Origin: Candidatus Margulisiibacteriota bacterium
GTDB taxonomy: Bacteria > Margulisbacteria > WOR-1 > JAHJIW01
Assembly (NCBI GenBank): GCA_018823125.1
Contig: JAHJIW010000011.1
Coordinates: 62,001 to 126,000, forward strand
Length of the DNA stretch: 64,000 nucleotides
Direction of reading: 5' to 3'
The notes beneath the pieces were generated by a model that saw only the letters and a program-made list of their open reading frames with translations, was not told the origin of the DNA and ran no database searches. Positions 42,703-57,997 of this stretch are shown here, piece after piece (the stretch's first letter is position 1; every line of letters begins with the position of its first letter). Position numbers and translations under genes: made by a program.

Positions 42703-43959
42703 TTAAATTGCTGAAAATGTCTCTCTAGTATTATCAATCGCTGTCTTAATTATCGCACGATGAGTCATAAGTGCCTCATACAAAGCTTCAATATGCGGCA
42801 CTCTAAAAACATCTAAAACCTGCTCATCAATTTCCACATTATTAGATGACCCACGTGAAAAATGGCCTAGCACCGGCAGGTCGGGTCCACCGCTTAAATA
42901 AATAGTGGTTATAGCCCTTGCTTTAATAAGCCAATCGAGAGCCACAAATAATTGACTTCCTAATCTTTCTCCTAAGATGTCAGGAATCGCCTGGCATTCC
43001 AAAAAGTCGGTATAAGTAACTGGAATACTTGTTTTATCTCCTGCAATCCCTGAAAACCCAAGCAAAAACATTAACTGAAAACCCCGTTGGGATCCGCCAT
43101 CTTTTTTTGCGTATAACTCCACTTTTTCCAAGTTACTAATATCTGCAGGAACTCTAATTCTATCCTTACTTTCTGCAAGGCGTTTCAGAGCTAAAGGCAA
43201 GTTTTTTGTTGCCAAATCAACATCAATTGCATCATAAAATTCTCTTTCAATTTCGTAGTATTGTTCTTCGTTCCCAAAAATAAATTTCCTGGTTAAAATA
43301 TCCCATGCCTGGTGTTGCCTTTTATATCCAGCGGAAAAATCTCGAGAACGATACAATCCACTCTCCCTAAACACGATTGGATCTCTTAAGGCCGCCCAAG
43401 AATATAAATTAAGTAAATCAAATCCTCCAACCGTAATGATATTTCGCCTGCCTGCTTGACGACGCAATTCATAAATCATTCCTCTTCGAATGCTCCGACT
43501 AGAACTAATTCTTTCCGGCAAGCGCTTTATAACACTTAACGGAAGCTGATTTATTTCATTATTATGAATATCATCCGCAGACATTCCCAAAACAATACTT
43601 AGTGCTTGGATAAGATTTTTTTCAAAAGGATGATACACTGCAAAATGTGATTCTGGATAAACAATATTTAAATCTAAATCTGAAGCAGGAGTACAAGTCT
43701 GACGAGCGATCCCACCCTGCTCATACCCAATTACATCATTTATTTTTATCCCACATTCCCCGGCTAATTTTCGAGAAACATCGGATATAACTTTTAAAAT
43801 AAATCCTTGATATTCAAGCGTTACAGGCAAAAGTGAAGAATTATTATGAGTAGCACGGACTGTTTTACGGCGTAAATCTATAATACGGGGCGCAACTTCT
43901 TCCCTCATGGATCTTATCCATTTTGGTACTTTTCTATAACTCCGGAGAGTAGTTTTCAT
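42703..43959 (-). CDS. orphan protein with nucleotidyltransferase-like motif, sigma-28-like promoter
   Basis: The 418-residue protein is soluble and not assigned. Residues about 78-100 read IGYEQGGIARQTCTPASDLDLNIVY, matching the GG/S-x-R…SDxDL signature of DNA-polymerase-beta-type nucleotidyltransferases such as the GlnD N-terminal or DUF294 domains. A third acidic residue cannot be placed with certainty. Other segments are mostly helical with many Arg. It could be a nucleotidylyl- or uridylyltransferase. The ATG follows AAGGGAG. The promoter at 43994-44021 is of the shared type, and about 45 bp of upstream sequence closely match those of the 51210 gene. Confidence 0.74.
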   Translation of the reverse strand: MKTTLRSYRKVPKWIRSMREEVAPRIIDLRRKTVRATHNNSSLLPVTLEYQGFILKVISDVSRKLAGECGIKINDVIGYEQGGIARQTCTPASDLDLNIVYPESHFAVYHPFEKNLIQALSIVLGMSADDIHNNEINQLPLSVIKRLPERISSSRSIRRGMIYELRRQAGRRNIITVGGFDLLNLYSWAALRDPIVFRESGLYRSRDFSAGYKRQHQAWDILTRKFIFGNEEQYYEIEREFYDAIDVDLATKNLPLALKRLAESKDRIRVPADISNLEKVELYAKKDGGSQRGFQLMFLLGFSGIAGDKTSIPVTYTDFLECQAIPDILGERLGSQLFVALDWLIKARAITTIYLSGGPDLPVLGHFSRGSSNNVEIDEQVLDVFRVPHIEALYEALMTHRAIIKTAIDNTRETFSAI

Positions 43960-43993
43960 GACTGACTCCCTTAAGCTCCATCCCCTCTATATA

Positions 43994-44021
43994 TACATCG
44001 TCAAAAATTGAGGAAAATTTC
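43994..44021 (-). promoter_or_regulatory. sigma-28/sigma-D-like promoter of the 42703-43959 gene
   Basis: On the minus strand GAAATTT (44015-44021) is followed after exactly 12 nt by GACGATGTA (43994-44002). TTCTCT precedes the first box, as it also does at the 51210 gene, and TATATAGAGG-type sequence follows both. Confidence 0.65.
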
Positions 44022-44132
44022 AGAGAATGCGGCTATCAACCATGATTTTATTTTGCGCAAAAATAATAGTTATTGTATAATTCAAATTGCTCAAACTGAT
44101 CCCTGAGCGGGATTAGCTCAGTGGTAGAGCTC

Positions 44133-44197
44133 CAACTCGGGTCTTGCGTCTTGTTATCGCATTATCATATGCTTAAGGTAAAGACACAAAACCCTCG
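44133..44197 (+). repeat. hairpin insert A in the outer tRNA-Gly
   Basis: The 65-nt insert lies between the D arm and anticodon arm. Its ends pair imperfectly: GGGTCTTGCGTCTTG against AAAGACACAAAACCC, with about 12 of 15 positions complementary. It has no coding potential. Confidence 0.55.
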
Positions 44198-44254
44198 GCC
44201 TTCCAGCAGGAGGTCGAATTTGAAAATCGAATAGATAATTTAACAACCCCTCGA

Positions 44255-44326
44255 GCGGGAGTAGCTCAGTGGTAGAGCTCCTGCCTTCCAAGCAGGAGGT
44301 CGCGGGTCCGAATCCCGTCTCCCGCT
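44255..44326 (+). tRNA. tRNA-Gly (UCC), nested inside an interrupted tRNA-Gly
   Basis: The acceptor stem pairs GCGGGAG with CTCCCGC. The anticodon arm is complete with TCC at 44287-44289, and the D arm has the invariant GG. The T loop reads TCCGAAT, so the position normally T55 is C, which is unusual. The acceptor stem is prolonged by flanking complementary bases (AACCCCT…/…AGGGGTT). It lies inside the second insert of the outer tRNA, whose arms TTTGAAAATCGAA and TTTCGATTTTCAAA flank it. Confidence 0.88.
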
Positions 44327-44376
44327 CAAGGGGTTTTGTTTTTTATTTCGATTTTCAAAAAAATAGAGGTCGCGGG

Positions 44377-44440
44377 CGAGAGATTTTTGTTTGCACATTA
44401 ATTCTTAGAATAATGCGAAGCCAAACGAAAATCACGAGTA
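44377..44440 (+). repeat. 64-nt hairpin insert in the T arm (first copy)
   Basis: The insert interrupts the T arm of the outer tRNA-Gly. Its arms GATTTTTGTTTG and CAAACGAAAATC pair with one mismatch, and the centre ATTCTTAGAAT is a second dyad. It is almost identical to 50984-51047. Confidence 0.75.
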
Positions 44441-44524
44441 GAATCCCGTCTCCCGCTCAGGGATTTAGTATTTTTAGAATCTTCGCAATAAAATCAGATT
44501 TTCAAAAGTGGCAAAGTGAAATTT

Positions 44525-48464: not shown

Positions 48465-49097
48465 TTATTTCTGCTGCGCGACTTCACGATTTAGCGCGCT
48501 CTTCTCGCCTGCCTCAAAATCATCATATTGGATGGCTCCCCAAGCACTAAGCTCTTCCTGCTGTGCCTGCCTGATCCGGTTTTTTATATAAGCTTGCTCC
48601 GCCTTCTTCTTTTCCTCTTTAATGGGAATGGCACTAATCGCATCCAAAGTATATCTAATGTTCCGGATATAATGCGCATAAGGAGGAACTCCTTTATAAG
48701 TATAAACCAGGTCCTCAATTTTTCTGGTTTGGCGATATTTTTTATACCATTTGGCAGTACCAATGAGCTTATGCGTTTCATAAATATTTTTATAGATCGA
48801 ATCAAAAGTAGTATTACAGCTGTTATAGCCAGTTAAATTACTGGTCGCTTTGGGATACTTTTTTCCAAAAGTACTTTCGGCTCCGGCAATGGCAACGTAC
48901 AAACGATAATCCAGGTTAAACTTATCCGCACAATATAAAATTTCCTGCTCGTGGCCGCGTAGCGGGCTAAAGGGATAACGATCTAAAAATATTTTAAGCC
49001 TAACCGCCCGTAAATCTTTATCGTAATTAGCCTGAGCATAAGCGAAATTTGCCGACAAACATATGATAAATACAATTATAACTATTCTTTTTGCCAT
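48465..49097 (-). CDS. secreted muramidase/glucosaminidase-like protein, sigma-28-like promoter
   Basis: The 210-residue protein has a signal peptide (IVIIVFIICLSANFAYAQ). The mature domain has ILYCADKFNLDYRLYVAIAGAESTFGKKYP, where the Glu of AESTFG matches the catalytic Glu of lysozyme-like and glucosaminidase-type folds, and a later PYAHYIRNIRYTLDAI. It probably cuts peptidoglycan. The C-terminal 45 residues are charged and coiled. The promoter contains GCCGACATA only 8 nt before the ATG, so the mRNA is probably leaderless. In Bacillus, sigma-D controls autolysins, which would fit the promoter type. Confidence 0.8.
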   Translation of the reverse strand: MAKRIVIIVFIICLSANFAYAQANYDKDLRAVRLKIFLDRYPFSPLRGHEQEILYCADKFNLDYRLYVAIAGAESTFGKKYPKATSNLTGYNSCNTTFDSIYKNIYETHKLIGTAKWYKKYRQTRKIEDLVYTYKGVPPYAHYIRNIRYTLDAISAIPIKEEKKKAEQAYIKNRIRQAQQEELSAWGAIQYDDFEAGEKSALNREVAQQK

Positions 49098-49105
49098 AAC
49101 AAATA

Positions 49106-49133
49106 TATGTCGGCATTTTTATGGAGAAATTTC
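49106..49133 (-). promoter_or_regulatory. sigma-28/sigma-D-like promoter of the muramidase-like gene
   Basis: On the minus strand GAAATTT (49127-49133) is followed after exactly 12 nt by GCCGACATA (49106-49114). The second box ends 8 nt before the ATG, leaving essentially no leader. Confidence 0.65.
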
Positions 49134-49149
49134 ACTTTTGGGGCAGGTT

Positions 49150-50753: not shown

Positions 50754-50780
50754 TTAATTTTGTGATATAATATCCGGCAC

Positions 50781-50806
50781 GGCTTGCCCGCAAAAGGTCG
50801 TAGGTT
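50781..50806 (+). pseudogene. diverged tRNA-Gly fragment upstream of tRNA-Gly (GCC)
   Basis: GGCTTGCCCGCAAAAGGTCG followed by TAGGTT matches the anticodon arm, variable loop and T-stem start of tRNA-Gly (GCC) with a few changes. It has no acceptor or D arm and is a remnant. Confidence 0.5.
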
Positions 50807-50847
50807 TTTTACTGAGCATTAAAAAGCTATAATTAGCTTAGTTCCAA

Positions 50848-50919
50848 GCGGGAGTAGCTCAGTGGTAGAGCTTTTGCTTGCCAAGCAAAAGGTCGCGGGT
50901 TCGAGCCCCGTCTCCCGCT
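50848..50919 (+). tRNA. tRNA-Gly (GCC), flanked by inverted repeats
   Basis: The acceptor stem pairs GCGGGAG with CTCCCGC, the anticodon loop TTGCCAA gives GCC, and the T loop TTCGAGC is standard. Outside it AGTTCCAA (50840-50847) pairs with TTGGAACT (50919-50926), lengthening the acceptor stem to 15 bp; further out CTGAGCATTAAAA (50812-50824) pairs perfectly with 50940-50952. The gene therefore sits in the middle of a long inverted repeat. Confidence 0.93.
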
Positions 50920-50960
50920 TGGAACTGTAGAAGCATTTATTTTAATGCTCAGGAGATAGG

Positions 50961-51071
50961 GCTTGCCAAGCAAAGTGGTCGCGTGAGTGATTTTTGTTTG
51001 CACATTAATTCTTAGAATAATGCGTAAGCCAAACGAAAATCACGAAGTGGTTCGAGCCCCGTCTCCCGCTT
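50961..51071 (+). pseudogene. tRNA-Gly (GCC) fragment interrupted by the 64-nt hairpin
   Basis: 50961-50983 corresponds to the anticodon arm and variable loop of tRNA-Gly (GCC), and 51048-51071 to the T loop and acceptor 3' strand. Between them is a 64-nt insert. There is no 5' half. A third, shorter fragment of the same tRNA part follows at 51114-51135. Confidence 0.65.
50984..51047 (+). repeat. 64-nt hairpin insert in the T arm (second copy)
   Basis: This copy nearly matches the insert at 44377-44440; more than 50 positions agree. Arms GTGATTTTTGTTTG and CAAACGAAAATCAC pair with one mismatch, and the centre has the CATTAATTCTTAGAATAATG dyad. The insertion point in the tRNA is equivalent. 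Confidence 0.75.
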
Positions 51072-51151
51072 GGGTTTTAGTTTGGGTTATTTCGGTTTTC
51101 AACATTCCAATCTATTGCCAAGCAAAGTGGTCGCGGCGAGCGACTTTCTCT

Positions 51152-51179
51152 GAAATTTCTCCTCATTTTTGACGATATA
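51152..51179 (+). promoter_or_regulatory. sigma-28/sigma-D-like promoter of the 51210 gene
   Basis: GAAATTT (51152-51158) is followed after exactly 12 nt by GACGATATA (51171-51179). The surrounding sequence closely matches the promoter of the 42703-43959 gene in inverted orientation. A GAGGAG site and a TTG start follow. Confidence 0.68.
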
Positions 51180-51209
51180 TATATAGGACCTGAATGAGGA
51201 GATTTAAAC

Positions 51210-52097
51210 TTGACCACTGCAATGCGAACCACAATTAGAAGTGTCGTAAAAGAAATGCAACGCCGTTTTCCGCTGGAACATTATGGCGGAGGACGAGATA
51301 TTTTATCACGTGGAAAATTTGCCCAAAGAAACCACGAGGCACACTTTGTTCCGCCCGCTAATCATCGTGGTTATACCTGTATCCGATCAAGTATTGAAAT
51401 TGAAAGAGCTTTACAGCGAAGAGGCATTCCGGCCGAACGCATCCAGGTAAAAATCCCTCGCCAGCATAAAGAATCAACACTAGTAATACCTCCGGCATTG
51501 CACGAATTTGTTGTAGCCGGAGACACTATGATCGGCATTACACCATGGGATCAAATTATTGGTGTTTATCCTTTTACCAGAATTGCACCTGCTCATCCCA
51601 TATTAGATGCTGCGCTCCGGTCTACTCCTGAAAAGGCTGAAGAAGAGCTAACTAATTATCTTGAGGTCGGAATGGTTACGGCCAGCACTATCCGCGGTCC
51701 ATTGCACTACCAATTAGGTTTTGCAGCACATTGTTATATGACTGCCGCCAGCGCTCGTTTTACCGTTGTGGCTTATGAACAAAACAATAATCCTTTCGGC
51801 ATAATCAGCTCGCAACCTTTTGCCGTTAGCATTCATCTTAATCATTTTCGCAAAATACCAGCTCTTAGGGGGTCTTTTAGGAGTTATTTTAACCGGGCAG
51901 CCGCCGCCGAACTGTTTTTAGAAGATAAGATAACCCCGCGCAACCAGAAAGAAGAAGAAACAATCTGGGAGCTACTCGAAACCGGTTGGCCCAGTATCAG
52001 AACTTTTCTATCAAGATTGAGACAAGCAGAAAAAAGACATCTCGCCTCTTTACCCGCTGAGGAACAAAGAATGGCCCGCCTCGCCAGCGGCGCATAA
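51210..52097 (+). CDS. orphan protein with possible Cys-His peptidase pattern, sigma-28-like promoter
   Basis: The 295-residue soluble protein is not recognised. Residues about 55-115 contain YTCIRSSIEIERALQRRGI and, forty residues later, LHEFVVAGDTMIGITPWDQ. A Cys-led helix followed by a His strand and an Asp is the order seen in transglutaminase- and papain-like folds, so a Cys-His-Asp enzyme is possible but unproven. The rest is helical and basic. Translation starts at a TTG with GAGGAG eight bases upstream. It has the shared promoter type and stands alone beside the tRNA-Gly fragments. Confidence 0.7.
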   Translation: MTTAMRTTIRSVVKEMQRRFPLEHYGGGRDILSRGKFAQRNHEAHFVPPANHRGYTCIRSSIEIERALQRRGIPAERIQVKIPRQHKESTLVIPPALHEFVVAGDTMIGITPWDQIIGVYPFTRIAPAHPILDAALRSTPEKAEEELTNYLEVGMVTASTIRGPLHYQLGFAAHCYMTAASARFTVVAYEQNNNPFGIISSQPFAVSIHLNHFRKIPALRGSFRSYFNRAAAAELFLEDKITPRNQKEEETIWELLETGWPSIRTFLSRLRQAEKRHLASLPAEEQRMARLASGA

Positions 52098-52918: not shown

Positions 52919-52993
52919 GGCGGCCTTGGTGTAGAGGTAACACAGCAGATTGTGGTTCTGCCTTCAGGGGTTCGATTCCCCTAGGCCGCCCCA
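52919..52993 (+). tRNA. tRNA-His (GUG), with encoded CCA and recombinase overlap
   Basis: The gene has G-1 paired with C73, the acceptor stem GCGGCCT/AGGCCGC, anticodon GTG and T loop TTCGATT. Unlike the other tRNAs here it is followed by encoded CCA (52991-52993). Its last 27 bases are also the antisense 3' end of the serine recombinase gene. The end GCCGCCCCA recurs at 63312-63320, marking it as the likely integration site. Confidence 0.93.
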
Positions 52994-54556
52994 TCTTGAA
53001 TTTCGAGCGTAAGCTAACTCGATTTTTCTTTGGTTCATGCGGTTTTTCATGGGTTCTAACCTTCTATGCAATAACTGCACCTCAGGAGCAAAGGCTGGAA
53101 ATATATCCAGCGGTTTTTTCAAGGTAACATGCAGTTTTCTGTCCTTTAACAGGAGGTTCGAGCCAAGATAGAAAAGAATCTTCTTTTTTGTTTCCAGGCT
53201 GCCATTGGTAAAACTTTCTCTGGCAGTTTCAGCAAATGAAAAGACCTGCTCGGCTTTTTCAAGCCATGCTTCAGTCCTCTGGTTTGAATCCACCAAGAGT
53301 TCTTCCAGCCTCTGTTTTTCTTTTAGCAGTTTTTCCTTTTTCTTCTTATATTCATCTGGCTCAATCTCATTATTCATCCGCATCTCAAATATTACGTCCA
53401 GGTTTCTCGTACACCTGCCAAGAGCTTGCTGTTGCGATTGGATAATTTGATTCCTGTCTTCCATTTCTTTGGCGTGCTCTTGTTTCAAGCATTTAATCGC
53501 CCACTGATGGAATTCGGGGGGAATCCTGATAGTATTTATGACATCAACCACTTGTTTTTCCAGTTCTTCTTCCCTGATGGTTTTCTGGCTACAATTTGGG
53601 TCAAGCTTTTTAGTGCAGCGGTAATATTTATAATTATGCGTATTTCCATTTTTTTGATGTTTAAACTTGTTTTCGGCAGTAATGGAAGCTCCGCACTCTC
53701 CACACCTTATAAGCCCCGTATAAGCAAATAAATGCCGTTTAGGACGTGGTTTCCCCCGACCACTGATGATTTGCTGCGCTGTTTCATATTCTGCTTGGGT
53801 AATCGTCGGTTCGTGACTACCTGGGTAAAGCTCTTTTTTCCAATAAAAGCTCCCATAATAAAAAGGATTTTTAAAAGTAAGATAAAACTTGCTCTTAGTA
53901 ATCTTCTTACCTTTGTCGGTAGTTAATCCCATATCATTTGCAACTTCATAAAGTTTGTTAACAGTATAGTTCTGTTCGATTATCATGTACCATAATTTTT
54001 TAACGAGGTCGAATCTATCTGGGTCTTTGTATATTGGTGGTTTGTCTGGCAGGTTATACTTGTTGTTTAAATAACCCAGGGGCGGTTTATGGGGATACCA
54101 TCCACTGCTTAGTTTTTTTCGCTGCCCTCTTTTGGTGGTTACGCTAAGGTCAAGGCTAAACTGGGTAGCAGAACCAAATTCAAGAGTCATCATTAGGACA
54201 TTATCGGTGGGGGAAAAACCTCTTTGATAAGTCTGTATATGTTTTATCGTGCCTTGCTGTAAATGCCAGCTTATCGTTCCGGCGTCAATCGGATTTCTTG
54301 TCAGCCTATCGAGCTTCCAACAAATTATCCCTTGGGCTTCCCCTTTTTGAATCCTTTCTATCATTTGGGTAAAAATCGGTCGGCCTGGTGCTTTTGCGGA
54401 TTTTTCTTCCTTAAAAACCTTTTTTATGGTTAGGCCTTTTTGTTTGGCAAGCCTGGTAAGTTCTTCAATTTGTGAAGGGATTGATGCAATCTGACGGTCT
54501 TCGCTTTCAGATGATTTTCTTGTATAGAGAAAATATTTAATTGAATTTTCCTTCAT
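52964..54556 (-). CDS. large serine recombinase
   Basis: The 530-residue protein is a large serine integrase. The catalytic Ser is in FLYTRKSSESEDRQIASI (about residue 15). The resolvase domain continues with IICWKLDRLTRNPIDAGTI, followed by the recombinase domain and a zinc ribbon (IRCGECGASI … YYRCTKK). A coiled coil lies near residues 390-450. The C-terminus is translated from the antisense of tRNA-His, so the last dozen residues (RWGGLGESNP) are dictated by the tRNA. It probably catalyses element integration at that site. Confidence 0.9.
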   Translation of the reverse strand: MKENSIKYFLYTRKSSESEDRQIASIPSQIEELTRLAKQKGLTIKKVFKEEKSAKAPGRPIFTQMIERIQKGEAQGIICWKLDRLTRNPIDAGTISWHLQQGTIKHIQTYQRGFSPTDNVLMMTLEFGSATQFSLDLSVTTKRGQRKKLSSGWYPHKPPLGYLNNKYNLPDKPPIYKDPDRFDLVKKLWYMIIEQNYTVNKLYEVANDMGLTTDKGKKITKSKFYLTFKNPFYYGSFYWKKELYPGSHEPTITQAEYETAQQIISGRGKPRPKRHLFAYTGLIRCGECGASITAENKFKHQKNGNTHNYKYYRCTKKLDPNCSQKTIREEELEKQVVDVINTIRIPPEFHQWAIKCLKQEHAKEMEDRNQIIQSQQQALGRCTRNLDVIFEMRMNNEIEPDEYKKKKEKLLKEKQRLEELLVDSNQRTEAWLEKAEQVFSFAETARESFTNGSLETKKKILFYLGSNLLLKDRKLHVTLKKPLDIFPAFAPEVQLLHRRLEPMKNRMNQRKIELAYARNSRWGGLGESNP

Positions 54557-54644
54557 TGCCTACCTTCTGATCTCGACCAAATGTTACCATGTTTTAACGC
54601 TTTTCAGCACGATTATTGTTGCATGTCGCTTTCATTGGTAATTC

Positions 54645-55292
54645 CTAATAAAATGCACGGAGTCTACTACACGCTTCATCTAATCTTTTTTGAAGCTTAG
54701 TAGGTTTGCCTGCATAATATTTTCGCCTCATTTTTGCTGATAATTTATCTATTTTATCTTCCAAGTTATAAAGGACAGTTAAGAAATGGTATTTTCCATC
54801 CCGATTTTCATTCCTCGATTTGTAGGTTAAGTTATAACAATGCCGGCATCCAAAATAGTCCCCTGCCTTGTAAAGCGTGGCAACCCTTTTACTACAATAC
54901 TTACCGTTTATTGAAAGCGGGCAAATAAACCAGTATCGCTCTGCGCCATAGTTGCATGGGGTAGTTGTTAAAGTCACTTTATAATCAAATTCCTTCTTCT
55001 CATTATTGTCTTCAGTTTGAGTATAACGAAGGTGTATATAGTTATCTTTGCCTAATGTTGAAACTGTAATATTGATAGCATTTTTCTCATCCGAAAAACT
55101 ATTTGGCCATTCAATAATTGCGGATATCAAACCGATCAGGTAGCCCTGCTGTTTCAGCCAGCGGATATCTATTTTTGATAATCGATCTGCTTCTCTTTTG
55201 CCTGCACATTTAACCATGTTTTTCGCCATTCCTACCGAAATCATTAAGGATCCACTCGGGACTCGTCTTTCACTTCTTCCAAACGAACCCAT
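54645..55292 (-). CDS. zinc-ribbon protein of unknown function, element gene
   Basis: The protein of about 215 residues starts at the ATG at 55292 (MGSFGRSERRVPSGS), which directly follows the preceding gene's stop; a longer start at 55316 would overlap that gene. It has a strand-rich middle and a CPLSINGKYCSKR … GDYFGCRHCYNLTYKSRNEN cysteine cluster that looks zinc-binding, then a helical C-terminus. The YFGCRHC-NLTY motif occurs in proteins of other mobile elements, as far as I recall. Function is unknown. Confidence 0.68.
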   Translation of the reverse strand: MGSFGRSERRVPSGSLMISVGMAKNMVKCAGKREADRLSKIDIRWLKQQGYLIGLISAIIEWPNSFSDEKNAINITVSTLGKDNYIHLRYTQTEDNNEKKEFDYKVTLTTTPCNYGAERYWFICPLSINGKYCSKRVATLYKAGDYFGCRHCYNLTYKSRNENRDGKYHFLTVLYNLEDKIDKLSAKMRRKYYAGKPTKLQKRLDEACSRLRAFY

Positions 55293-55293
55293 T

Positions 55294-55824
55294 TTATTTT
55301 TCGGAAATATCAACATCTATTGCCAACGGAATGTTATGTTTTTTTCCAGTACGAGCGGCTTGGATGCGCTGCAATTCGTGAAGGGCTTTATAAATGCCTC
55401 GCTCGATGCTTGCCTCGTAGCGTATAAGCTTCCCGTAAGTATCAAATTTGGCAAAATTGATGCTCATCGCCTTGCCAAGCGTCTTTGGGGTGTCGACGAT
55501 TTCGAAATCACTACCGTTTAGATCATAGTTCATCATCTCCCGTTCTACTCGCATTACACGTCTCAATCGCCAGGTATTAGCAGTGATCCTATCTACCAGC
55601 ATAAATTCAAGCTCTGTTTCCGGTTCTAATTCCGTCCTCAATCTTTTGCCGATTTCAATAAGAACTTCCTCGTCTTCTCCTGCAAGCAAAACCTCTTTAC
55701 TTAATAAACCGTGTTTCAAAGCGTTATATTTACTTACTACTTTGCCCTCTTGAGTTTTAGGCCCGGTGGACTGTAAGGCGTTCTGCTGATTGGCCTCCAA
55801 CTGTTTTTGTGATACTTCATTCAT
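55294..55824 (-). CDS. conserved element protein with STGPKTQEGK motif
   Basis: The 176-residue protein starts ANQQNALQSTGPKTQEGK and continues SKYNALKHGLLSKE, a recurring but uncharacterised motif pair in bacterial accessory regions. The rest is helical, with LVDRITANTWRLRRVMRVE. Function unknown; a DNA-associated role is a guess. It overlaps the primase-like gene by 8 nt and precedes the zinc-ribbon gene without a gap, so it belongs to one operon with the replication genes. Confidence 0.72.
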   Translation of the reverse strand: MNEVSQKQLEANQQNALQSTGPKTQEGKVVSKYNALKHGLLSKEVLLAGEDEEVLIEIGKRLRTELEPETELEFMLVDRITANTWRLRRVMRVEREMMNYDLNGSDFEIVDTPKTLGKAMSINFAKFDTYGKLIRYEASIERGIYKALHELQRIQAARTGKKHNIPLAIDVDISEK

Positions 55825-57997
55825 GGTTTCCCTCCTTATTGATATCTACCCCACCATACTGTTCACTATTGTTTTGCTGGGTAGATATAGTGAGCGGCGT
55901 GGTGGGGTAAACCAGCATTTTCCTTTTGTCATCAGGGTCTCGCTCCTGCATTATTAAGCCAGCGTTTTCTAACATCGGTATAATCTGCATTCGTAGAAGC
56001 CAATCGGCCAATACCCGTCCGTATTCCTGGATGTGCTTCTGCGTTACCTCTCGCCTCGTTAAACCCAGCCATTCTGCCGTATTATTGCCTCTATCCAGAT
56101 TTTTCTCTCTCCAAGCGGGGGTAATGATATCTTGGTATATCTGATAAATATAGGGGGGCAGATTAAACTCCTGGCTTTCGGAAATTATATGCCACACTTT
56201 GAACGCCTCATTGATATCATCTTCATTTACTATGATTGTCGATCCACTTCTTTCTCTGAACCATAAATTAAGTAAGGCAAATGCCTTAATAAGTGAGAGA
56301 ATACGTCCAATATCCCGCTGGTGTCTTGGTTTTAATATCTTATTTACAGTAAAAAATGCCTTTTCTATCTTTTCAGGCGAGCTTATTTTTATATCTCTAA
56401 TCTTTGCCTGCTTGATTGCTCGTATTCGCTCTTTGAGTAATTTTCGTTCCGGTTCATTCTCTAGAAATTGTTGAAATGTTAAGCTATCAGCTTCTTTTCT
56501 TATTTTTTGATAAATTGCTTCTCTTATTTTCTCTCGATTGGTTTCTGGGCTTAATAAAAGGAATCTCGTTGTCTCTTGCTCATCGAGTTTTAATCCCGCA
56601 GTGCAGAAAATCACGGATGGGAAACCTCGGAGATAGATATTTTTTGTCCTAAGTCCTGCTTTTTGGGATTTATCCGTAATCTTTATCCGAATTTCCTTTT
56701 TGTCGTGAGACAATAGAGGACGCAGGTGCTGTAAGAGCAAAGTATGCGGCTGGTCAAGAAAAATCAGAATCTTTCTGGATAAATCAACGGTATATCCTTC
56801 TTTCTCTTTTTCGTATTTCCCAGCGTCATGAAAGAATGCGGTGGGACTGCAATAGCCAACTTCGATTATATCTTCTTCTGGGAATAGTTGGGCGATCTCC
56901 GTGGGGATATATGATTTTCCGGTTGATGACGGCGCATTAAAACTGATATTTAACTGTGAGTTTTCTGTATAGGCGGAAAGTTCACATAAAAAGGTTATTA
57001 GTTTATTTTCCTCGTCCTTTTTGATGGTCAAGCCTAATATCTCGATGAGTTTTTGAGTCGAAAGCGGCTTAAACTGCGAAGTATCAATCTTTTCGGGATA
57101 TTCTTTTGCGTATTTCCCAAATAAATCTTCTGTTGAGCCTTTCAGTTTAACAAAATAATCAGTTATATCCCCGCCTTCCCCAACTTCATCAGGCAAAGTG
57201 ATAAGGTAGAGATCGTTATTTCCAGTCTCGAAAAGCATATCCACAACCCGTCTGGATCCATTCCGGCCAGCTTCGTCATTGTCATAGCAAATGTAGATTT
57301 TTCTCCCTTTCCCAATCTTCTCGACCCATTCCTGCTTGAAGGTCATGGCTCCGTGCGTCGAGCTGATCGCCGGTATTCCTTTTGATATCAACAGCAGTCT
57401 ATCCAGCTCGCCCTCGCAGATTACAAGCATTTTTTCTATATTTTGCAGAACTTCCCAATCGTATATTTGAGCTTCTACACCTTTCGGATAGGTCATTTTG
57501 TCATTGCCTTTGTTAGGATCTTGCCTTAACTTGAAAAACACAAAATTGCCATTGTTATCCTTAATTGGGATAGTTATCCAAGATTTACCATAGAATTCGC
57601 CCAGGCCGAGCTTGCACACCCCTATAACCGCATCTGTGATGCCTCTGGCGTTTAAATACCGCCTAATTTGTTCGGGAAGCGCTTGATGGCACTTTTCCAC
57701 CAAATCTTGATTGAACTTAGCTTTTTTATGATTTGGGCGTTTGATTGGACACAAGACAATATCTTTTGAATCGTCACCAAAATGCTTTGCAAGTGTTATA
57801 AGATTGCCGCTCGTACCACATTTTTTGCAATCATATTGCCCAGTATTAGCGCTAAAATAAAGATGCCTCTCACTACCCCTGCTGTCGTTATCACAGCCAT
57901 TAAATAAACATTGAGTTATTAGTTCTCCGCCTCTTTCTATAAAAATAATCCCTTTTTTACTTAAGTACTCTTTAATTGTAATTGTTTCTAAACTCAT
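55817..57997 (-). CDS. primase/helicase-like replication protein
   Basis: The 726-residue protein has an N-terminal zinc-finger region (CLFNGCDND … CKKCGTSG, about 28-62) like CHC2 primases, a Toprim domain (CEGELDRLL about 193; YDNDEAGRNGS about 238), and an ATPase domain with Walker A APSSTGKS (about 356) and LIFLDQPHTLL as Walker B. The C-terminal third contains a winged-helix-like region. This order matches replication proteins of phages and plasmids. It overlaps the genes on both sides by a few bases. A 26-bp part of its end recurs at the element's right end. Confidence 0.85.
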   Translation of the reverse strand: MSLETITIKEYLSKKGIIFIERGGELITQCLFNGCDNDSRGSERHLYFSANTGQYDCKKCGTSGNLITLAKHFGDDSKDIVLCPIKRPNHKKAKFNQDLVEKCHQALPEQIRRYLNARGITDAVIGVCKLGLGEFYGKSWITIPIKDNNGNFVFFKLRQDPNKGNDKMTYPKGVEAQIYDWEVLQNIEKMLVICEGELDRLLLISKGIPAISSTHGAMTFKQEWVEKIGKGRKIYICYDNDEAGRNGSRRVVDMLFETGNNDLYLITLPDEVGEGGDITDYFVKLKGSTEDLFGKYAKEYPEKIDTSQFKPLSTQKLIEILGLTIKKDEENKLITFLCELSAYTENSQLNISFNAPSSTGKSYIPTEIAQLFPEEDIIEVGYCSPTAFFHDAGKYEKEKEGYTVDLSRKILIFLDQPHTLLLQHLRPLLSHDKKEIRIKITDKSQKAGLRTKNIYLRGFPSVIFCTAGLKLDEQETTRFLLLSPETNREKIREAIYQKIRKEADSLTFQQFLENEPERKLLKERIRAIKQAKIRDIKISSPEKIEKAFFTVNKILKPRHQRDIGRILSLIKAFALLNLWFRERSGSTIIVNEDDINEAFKVWHIISESQEFNLPPYIYQIYQDIITPAWREKNLDRGNNTAEWLGLTRREVTQKHIQEYGRVLADWLLRMQIIPMLENAGLIMQERDPDDKRKMLVYPTTPLTISTQQNNSEQYGGVDINKEGNHE
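55886..55911 (+). repeat. 26-bp repeat (copy 1, inside the primase gene)
   Basis: The sequence begins TATAGTGAG and ends TGGTGGGGTAAA. It matches 63229-63254 at 23 of 26 positions in the same orientation. A further inverted relative is at 55847-55870, giving an inverted repeat in the last codons of the primase gene. Confidence 0.65.

Follow-up and report, generated by a model that had tools for sequence, protein, structure and literature searches.

The window (64,000 nt of contig JAHJIW010000011.1 from a Candidatus Margulisiibacteriota assembly) contains two tRNA-Gly loci at which an intact gene is surrounded by pieces of its own sequence. In the first locus, an intact tRNA-Gly(GCC) was identified on the forward strand at 50848–50919 (ends 50847/8 and 50919/20; 73 bits), which is the sole gene with a GCC anticodon found in the assembly. 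Direct reading revealed an acceptor stem extended by 8 bp (AGTTCCAA, 50840–50847, and TTGGAACT, 50919–50926) and a perfect outer inverted repeat of 13 bp (CTGAGCATTAAAA, 50812–50824, and TTTTAATGCTCAG, 50940–50952), the arms of which pair in the predicted fold; all four segments are given for the forward strand. The region as a whole, which an earlier note on this DNA had proposed to fold, reached −140.9 kcal/mol (z = −5.7 compared to shuffled sequences). The gene, the extended stem, and the outer repeat described in that note were likewise recovered.

Fragments of the same tRNA were detected on both sides of the intact gene, all on the forward strand and with E-values between 4e-9 and 0.016 (1.2 kb flank searched). 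To the left lies a diverged remnant comprising anticodon arm and T stem (50780–50806; nt 38–48, E = 0.016), in line with the earlier note, which had placed it at about 50781. The note had furthermore reported two partial copies to the right; both exist, with starts at about 50959 and at 51114, but the first of them is actually a 3′ half split by a 63-nt hairpin that the note had not named. The first piece of this half comprises the anticodon arm and the variable region (50959–50983), the second piece extends from the T loop to the 3′ end (51047–51071; nt 51–72, E = 4e-9), and the T arm between them is interrupted by the hairpin element, hereafter termed H (50984–51046, forward strand; 79 bits, E = 2.7e-18). 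The third remnant extends from the 3′ side of the anticodon to the T stem (51114 to about 51136–51140) and terminates in CGAG, i.e., the terminal bases of H.

A cleaner case is found at 44.1–44.5 kb, where an intact tRNA-Gly(TCC) lies within nested inverted repeats inside a split outer tRNA-Gly(TCC); the two loci, whose alignment the earlier note had suggested, have a common layout. The outer tRNA begins with a 5′ part that reaches the anticodon stem (44105–44135; nt 1–27, E = 1e-9), is interrupted in the anticodon arm by an antisense H (44136–44197, reverse strand; E = 1.8e-16), and continues from the anticodon to the variable region with the 3′ terminus GAGGTCG (44198–44216). The inner unit follows, enclosed by an inverted repeat recognised by direct reading (TTTGAAAATCGAA, 44219–44231, and TTCGATTTTCAAA, 44347–44359), and contains the intact tRNA (44255–44326) with the extended acceptor stem (44245–44254 and 44327–44336) that the earlier note had also pointed out. 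The outer tRNA then resumes with GAGGTCG (GAGGTCGCGGG, 44366–44376), is interrupted in the T loop by a sense H (44377–44438; E = 2.8e-20), and closes with its 3′ end and its own extended-stem partner CAGGGA (44439–44463). Apart from the antisense H, all of these features are located on the forward strand. The earlier note had interpreted the intact tRNA genes as cargo of hairpin units inserted in older copies of the same tRNA. This is a good description of the anatomy and fits tRNA-Gly(TCC), where GAGGTCG is present at either end of the inner unit; at tRNA-Gly(GCC), however, the palindrome flanking the gene cannot be identified as H, and the interpretation as a whole is only partly supported. 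The tRNA may travel as cargo, or it may be a copy that duplication left in place when a break was repaired.

H is a 62-nt hairpin family with 11 copies in the genome, as identified by a covariance model. An alignment of eight copies shows 82% identity and CGAG at both termini, and the stem is maintained by compensatory changes (15 double-change cells compared to 5.0 ± 1.8 upon shuffling). Nine of the 11 copies have an intact tRNA or 5S gene at a distance of no more than 300 nt (binomial ~1e-15; this and the other neighbour statistics rest on simple positional expectations), and 10 are found in or beside remnants of stable RNAs, which applies to tRNA-Gly (three copies), Lys, Pro (two), Val (two), Glu, and 5S rRNA. 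The copy associated with Glu lies within a hairpin cluster preceding a tRNA-Glu 3′ remnant. The effect extends beyond tRNA genes, because a 5S rRNA 3′ remnant, situated ~60 nt beyond the intact 5S gene (contig C10:2857), is also split by H. The remaining copy interrupts an unrelated, non-tRNA palindromic repeat of 156 bp with three copies (C16:65683, C19:50427, and C3:7037), of which the one on C3 carries H and the other two represent the empty site. The orientation of H is fixed, being sense in every T arm and antisense in every anticodon arm.

The tRNA-Pro(GGG) locus shows the order tRNA, hairpin, tRNA, hairpin, tRNA, an arrangement in which, twice over, an outer tRNA is interrupted by an H whose loop contains a further tRNA. 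Joining the flanks of the middle tRNA yields a complete H (E = 4e-13), and joining those of the inner tRNA yields a nearly complete one (E = 8e-6); the cargo image is therefore literal at this locus. Simple tandem duplication was rejected as a full account of tRNA-Pro(GGG), since the arms of one hairpin enclose a whole tRNA. At two contig ends (C15 and C18), an apparent IS3-type insertion sequence has entered tRNA-Pro remnants that carry H.

With its short asymmetric hairpins in several copies, the family resembles REP/RAYT and other bacterial palindromic repeats, from which it differs by its specificity for tRNA loops and by the absence of a Y1 transposase from the genome. A Y1 (HUH) transposase was rejected as the mover of H, as the assembly (94% complete) contains no PF01797 match, and the same holds for a reverse transcriptase of a retroelement or group II intron (PF00078, no match in the assembly). 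An Rfam scan of the window returned tRNAs only and no intron family. A search of the 30 other class genomes with the H model gave only two weak matches (E = 0.05 and 0.08), and H is absent from these genomes; as an exact pattern, it had no match in genome and viral collections and thus appears to be lineage-specific.

The assembly comprises 1.73 Mb in 19 contigs, and its atpD shares 72–76% identity with candidate division WOR-1/Margulisiibacteriota genomes. When each of the 43 tRNA genes was used to search its own 600-bp flanks, self-remnants were detected at 12 loci compared to ~1 expected at the cut-off. These include both Gly loci, Lys(TTT), Pro(GGG), Val(CAC), Val(TAC), Met, Ala(TGC), Glu(TTC), and Glu(CTC), as well as the weaker cases Tyr and Arg; Val(GAC) and Gln(CTG) were missed by the scan and found by reading. 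Regarding extended stems elsewhere in the genome, about which the earlier note had asked, these occur chiefly at remnant loci (6/12 versus 1/31; Fisher p = 0.0009), and they probably help the intact tRNA to fold separately from the look-alike fragments. The association, the strong folding (z = −5.7), and the fact that nested intact tRNAs are the sole genes of their anticodon in the assembly (three CAT genes aside) also fit a functional role of stems, remnants, and hairpins in the expression or processing of tRNA, e.g., as an insulator or decoy. We consider this highly unlikely, as 31 of the 43 tRNA loci do without any such feature (no remnants in the 600-bp flanks), the remnants are diverged and variable in number, and relatives retain these tRNAs without the structures. 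The chance that assembly or amplification created the loci is next to negligible: some of the 19 contigs do terminate at such loci, but the copies differ by compensatory changes, and the same layouts are present in the curated complete relative MEUD01000001.

The relatives (30 other class genomes, one per species, none close to this species) contain hairpin-split tRNA copies beside an intact tRNA in the layout seen in the window, with hairpins other than H. The earlier note had named absence from relatives as evidence against its reading, and such loci are present. Their most conspicuous insert is a double hairpin (TCCCG..CGGGA-TCCCG..CGGGA), i.e., two adjacent hairpins inserted as a unit, in contrast to the single hairpin H of the window. 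The double hairpin is found in the T loop after GTTC (GTTC^RA), in the D loop after ~nt 16, and occasionally in the anticodon loop. Its excision rebuilds an uninterrupted tRNA in 22 of 29 pattern matches (among which are three alternative starts of one same element), compared to 0/400 for randomly joined flanks. Among the matches that did not restore a tRNA, two are clearly located elsewhere and one is T-loop-like but unmatched. The double hairpin also occurs in the genome under study, namely in both broken Pro copies and in the tRNA-Gln 3′ remnant.

Such loci could in principle be ordinary scars, i.e., attR-type fragments and tandem tRNA duplications that later decayed and were struck by unrelated repeats. 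Prokaryotic tRNA fragments are usually attR remnants (PMC9897764), partial copies beside an intact tRNA are shared with the attR fragments of integrated elements, and some loci in relatives, e.g., tRNA-Ile of G002, have a 3′ fragment only. The loci described here differ in that they hold both parts of one tRNA, 5′ on the left and 3′ on the right, separated by tens of bases at the Gly loci and with no large element or integrase between them. Moreover, the hairpins lie exactly in loops, and the arms of H enclose a whole tRNA at tRNA-Pro. We therefore regard this explanation as decidedly unlikely, and it also leaves unexplained the association of remnants with endonuclease genes described below.

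All listed small GIY-YIG ORFs of the 31 class genomes were split by motif into type A (21 ORFs) and type B (55 ORFs). Type A served as an internal control: 12 of the 21 ORFs are located downstream of tRNA-Gln, Asn, or Met, and none of these 12 is accompanied by tRNA remnants. In many genera, type-A ORFs lie just 3′ of tRNA-Gln or tRNA-Asn without remnants, which represents a conserved neighbourhood. Type-B ORFs are free-standing; 38 of them have a tRNA, always on their own strand, at a distance of up to 300 nt (~1 expected by position), and the other 17 have no tRNA nearby. Upstream of an intact tRNA we found 32 type-B ORFs, and remnants of that very tRNA are present at 30 of these loci. In 29 cases, the remnant lies upstream of the ORF and usually begins at nt 1, i.e., it is a 5′ part. 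Most of these remnants terminate in the anticodon or T loop, and hairpins in the D, anticodon, or T loop interrupt many of them. The stop codon of the ORF is located within or past the start of the following tRNA in 14 of 29 cases. The GIY-YIG catalytic residues are invariant in 16 aligned type-B sequences, and the motifs are intact in the relatives as well as in the ORF of the studied genome. In a tree of 36 type-B proteins, whose resolution is limited by 71 alignment columns, the isotype labels of the adjoining tRNAs required 16 changes compared to a mean of 25.7 upon shuffling (0/200 as low), and the isotype clades span bacterial families. A viral origin of the type-B enzymes was rejected, because viral contigs contained no close relative and phage or plasmid matches reached only ~40–45% identity.

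Double hairpin and GIY-YIG ORF coincide in 10 of 34 cases; near type-A ORFs, the combination does not occur. At tRNA-Pro of relative G011 (L307), for instance, the double hairpin is located exactly at GGTTC|AAATCC and is followed by the ORF and then by the intact tRNA-Pro; further examples of type-B loci read base by base are tRNA-Ser of G001 (L308) and tRNA-Tyr of G011 (L298). The genome under study contains one type-B GIY-YIG ORF, which lies between a tRNA-Glu 5′ remnant and the intact tRNA-Glu. At this locus, the contig ends C10:171116 and C7:43541 overlap with small differences, so that the two contigs probably join here, or else two near copies exist. No endonuclease ORF was found in or near either tRNA-Gly locus of the window, where the linkers of 34–60 nt hold no trace of one. 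The ORF in relatives, the recurrent loop hairpin in the broken halves, and the extent of the phenomenon (about a quarter of the genome's tRNA loci, plus 5S) had all been missed by the earlier note.

Taken together, we consider it somewhat probable that the tRNA-Gly loci are traces of selfish homing elements that target tRNA genes and leave a rescue tRNA, the loci themselves being scars without an ORF or non-autonomous forms. In this view, a small, free-standing endonuclease of the GIY-YIG type would cut the tRNA gene in a conserved loop (T loop at GTTC^RA, D loop, or anticodon loop), and repair would leave one copy broken, usually with a palindromic insert exactly in the loop. The enzyme would thereby drive the duplications, and a complete copy would remain beside or inside the broken one, by which the cell retains its sole tRNA of that kind. 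In the relatives, the ORF, flanked by the broken 5′ copy on one side and the intact one on the other, would represent a natural home-and-rescue layout; as the window loci share this layout minus the ORF, they are most likely forms that lack an ORF or have lost one. H would be the counterpart of the relatives' double hairpin in this lineage, and the palindromes may be separate elements entering at the cuts of the enzyme. Several observations count against the involvement of the endonuclease: both window loci lack the ORF, the rescue copy still retains the loop motifs and should therefore be exposed to the enzyme, H is also found in the 5S remnant and in the non-tRNA palindromic repeat, the genome has a sole type-B ORF compared to about a dozen affected loci, and 17 of the 55 type-B ORFs have no tRNA nearby. 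Furthermore, H itself was never observed beside an endonuclease, since it is absent from the 30 class relatives searched.

Alternatively, the hairpins could be palindromic mobile repeats (MITE-like or double-hairpin elements) that are independent of the endonuclease, favour loops of structured RNAs, and are tolerated in duplicated tRNAs, with GIY-YIG ORFs as a second, separate tRNA parasite. H and the double hairpin are indeed present at loci without an ORF, H has entered non-tRNA sequence and 5S, and nested palindromes recur in the genome. This explanation nevertheless appears unlikely to us, because neither a Y1/REP transposase nor a reverse transcriptase was found in the assembly, double hairpin and type-B ORF share loci as described, and the T-loop sites match the motif of a known tRNA-cutting enzyme. 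SegB of T-even phages is a free-standing GIY-YIG homing endonuclease that cuts within tRNA genes with the preferred motif RAWTSGAAC (PMC13096335), which we read as the complement of the T-loop sequence GTTCSAWTY. SegB co-occurs with tRNAs in phages, next to many isotypes, and drives amplification of tRNA-segB units via microhomology between the segB end and the tRNA 5′ end (PMC13096335). The type-B ORFs likewise are small GIY-YIG genes adjoining tRNA genes of many isotypes, the double-hairpin site GTTC^RA coincides with the complement of the SegB motif, and the ORFs that run into the following tRNA recall the microhomology. Unlike SegB, they are found in bacterial chromosomes at essential single-copy tRNAs, where a broken copy of the tRNA in question, with hairpins in its loops, precedes the ORF.

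Two further systems are comparable in part. Double-hairpin or repetitive hairpin elements of mitochondrial DNA are inserted in or near structural RNA genes (PMC2800124), as are the single or tandem hairpins described here. Only the double hairpin of the relatives is a unit of two whose flanks rejoin to an intact gene, H being single; in contrast to the mitochondrial elements, the hairpins are bacterial and occur almost exclusively in tRNA loops and in broken copies that have an intact one alongside. Engineered home-and-rescue drives use a Cas9 nuclease that breaks an essential gene and is carried with an intact copy (PMC7968924), and the same combination would be realised here in a natural arrangement, as judged from sequence alone. 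Tentatively, and without calling it probable, we therefore propose a natural home-and-rescue class in bacterial chromosomes, in which an isotype-specific GIY-YIG endonuclease lies between a hairpin-inactivated and an intact essential tRNA, with ORF-less descendants such as the Gly nests, where the rescue tRNA lies inside a hairpin. No earlier account of such bacterial loci was found in the open-access literature searched. If true, essential tRNA genes throughout a bacterial class would be battlegrounds of a selfish nuclease that is tolerable by leaving a working copy, forming a natural parallel to the designed drives. It would also constitute a source of tRNA duplications and nested palindromes and explain odd tRNA fragments in annotations. 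Because the endonuclease clades are linked to tRNA isotypes, the idea lends itself to direct testing with small proteins and synthetic tRNA genes. An insertion element with such exact targeting of tRNA loops is unusual in itself, whatever the role of the endonuclease.

Two other features of the window caught our interest. A large serine recombinase ORF (52964–54556, reverse strand) overlaps the end of tRNA-His (52920–52993), and a DnaG-like primase ORF is located nearby at 55817–57997; the region 52920–57997 is probably an element integrated at tRNA-His. Furthermore, a promoter-like repeat of ~40 nt (..GAAATTTCTCCTCATTTTTGACGATATATATATAGG..) is present at 43987–44034, 49103–49134, and 51139–51186, where it precedes the ORFs 42703–43959 (reverse strand), 48465–49097 (reverse strand), and 51210–52097 (forward strand), all three without a Pfam match. 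With ~25 copies genome-wide and similar TATATATAGG boxes in relatives, this repeat may mark a co-regulated gene set.
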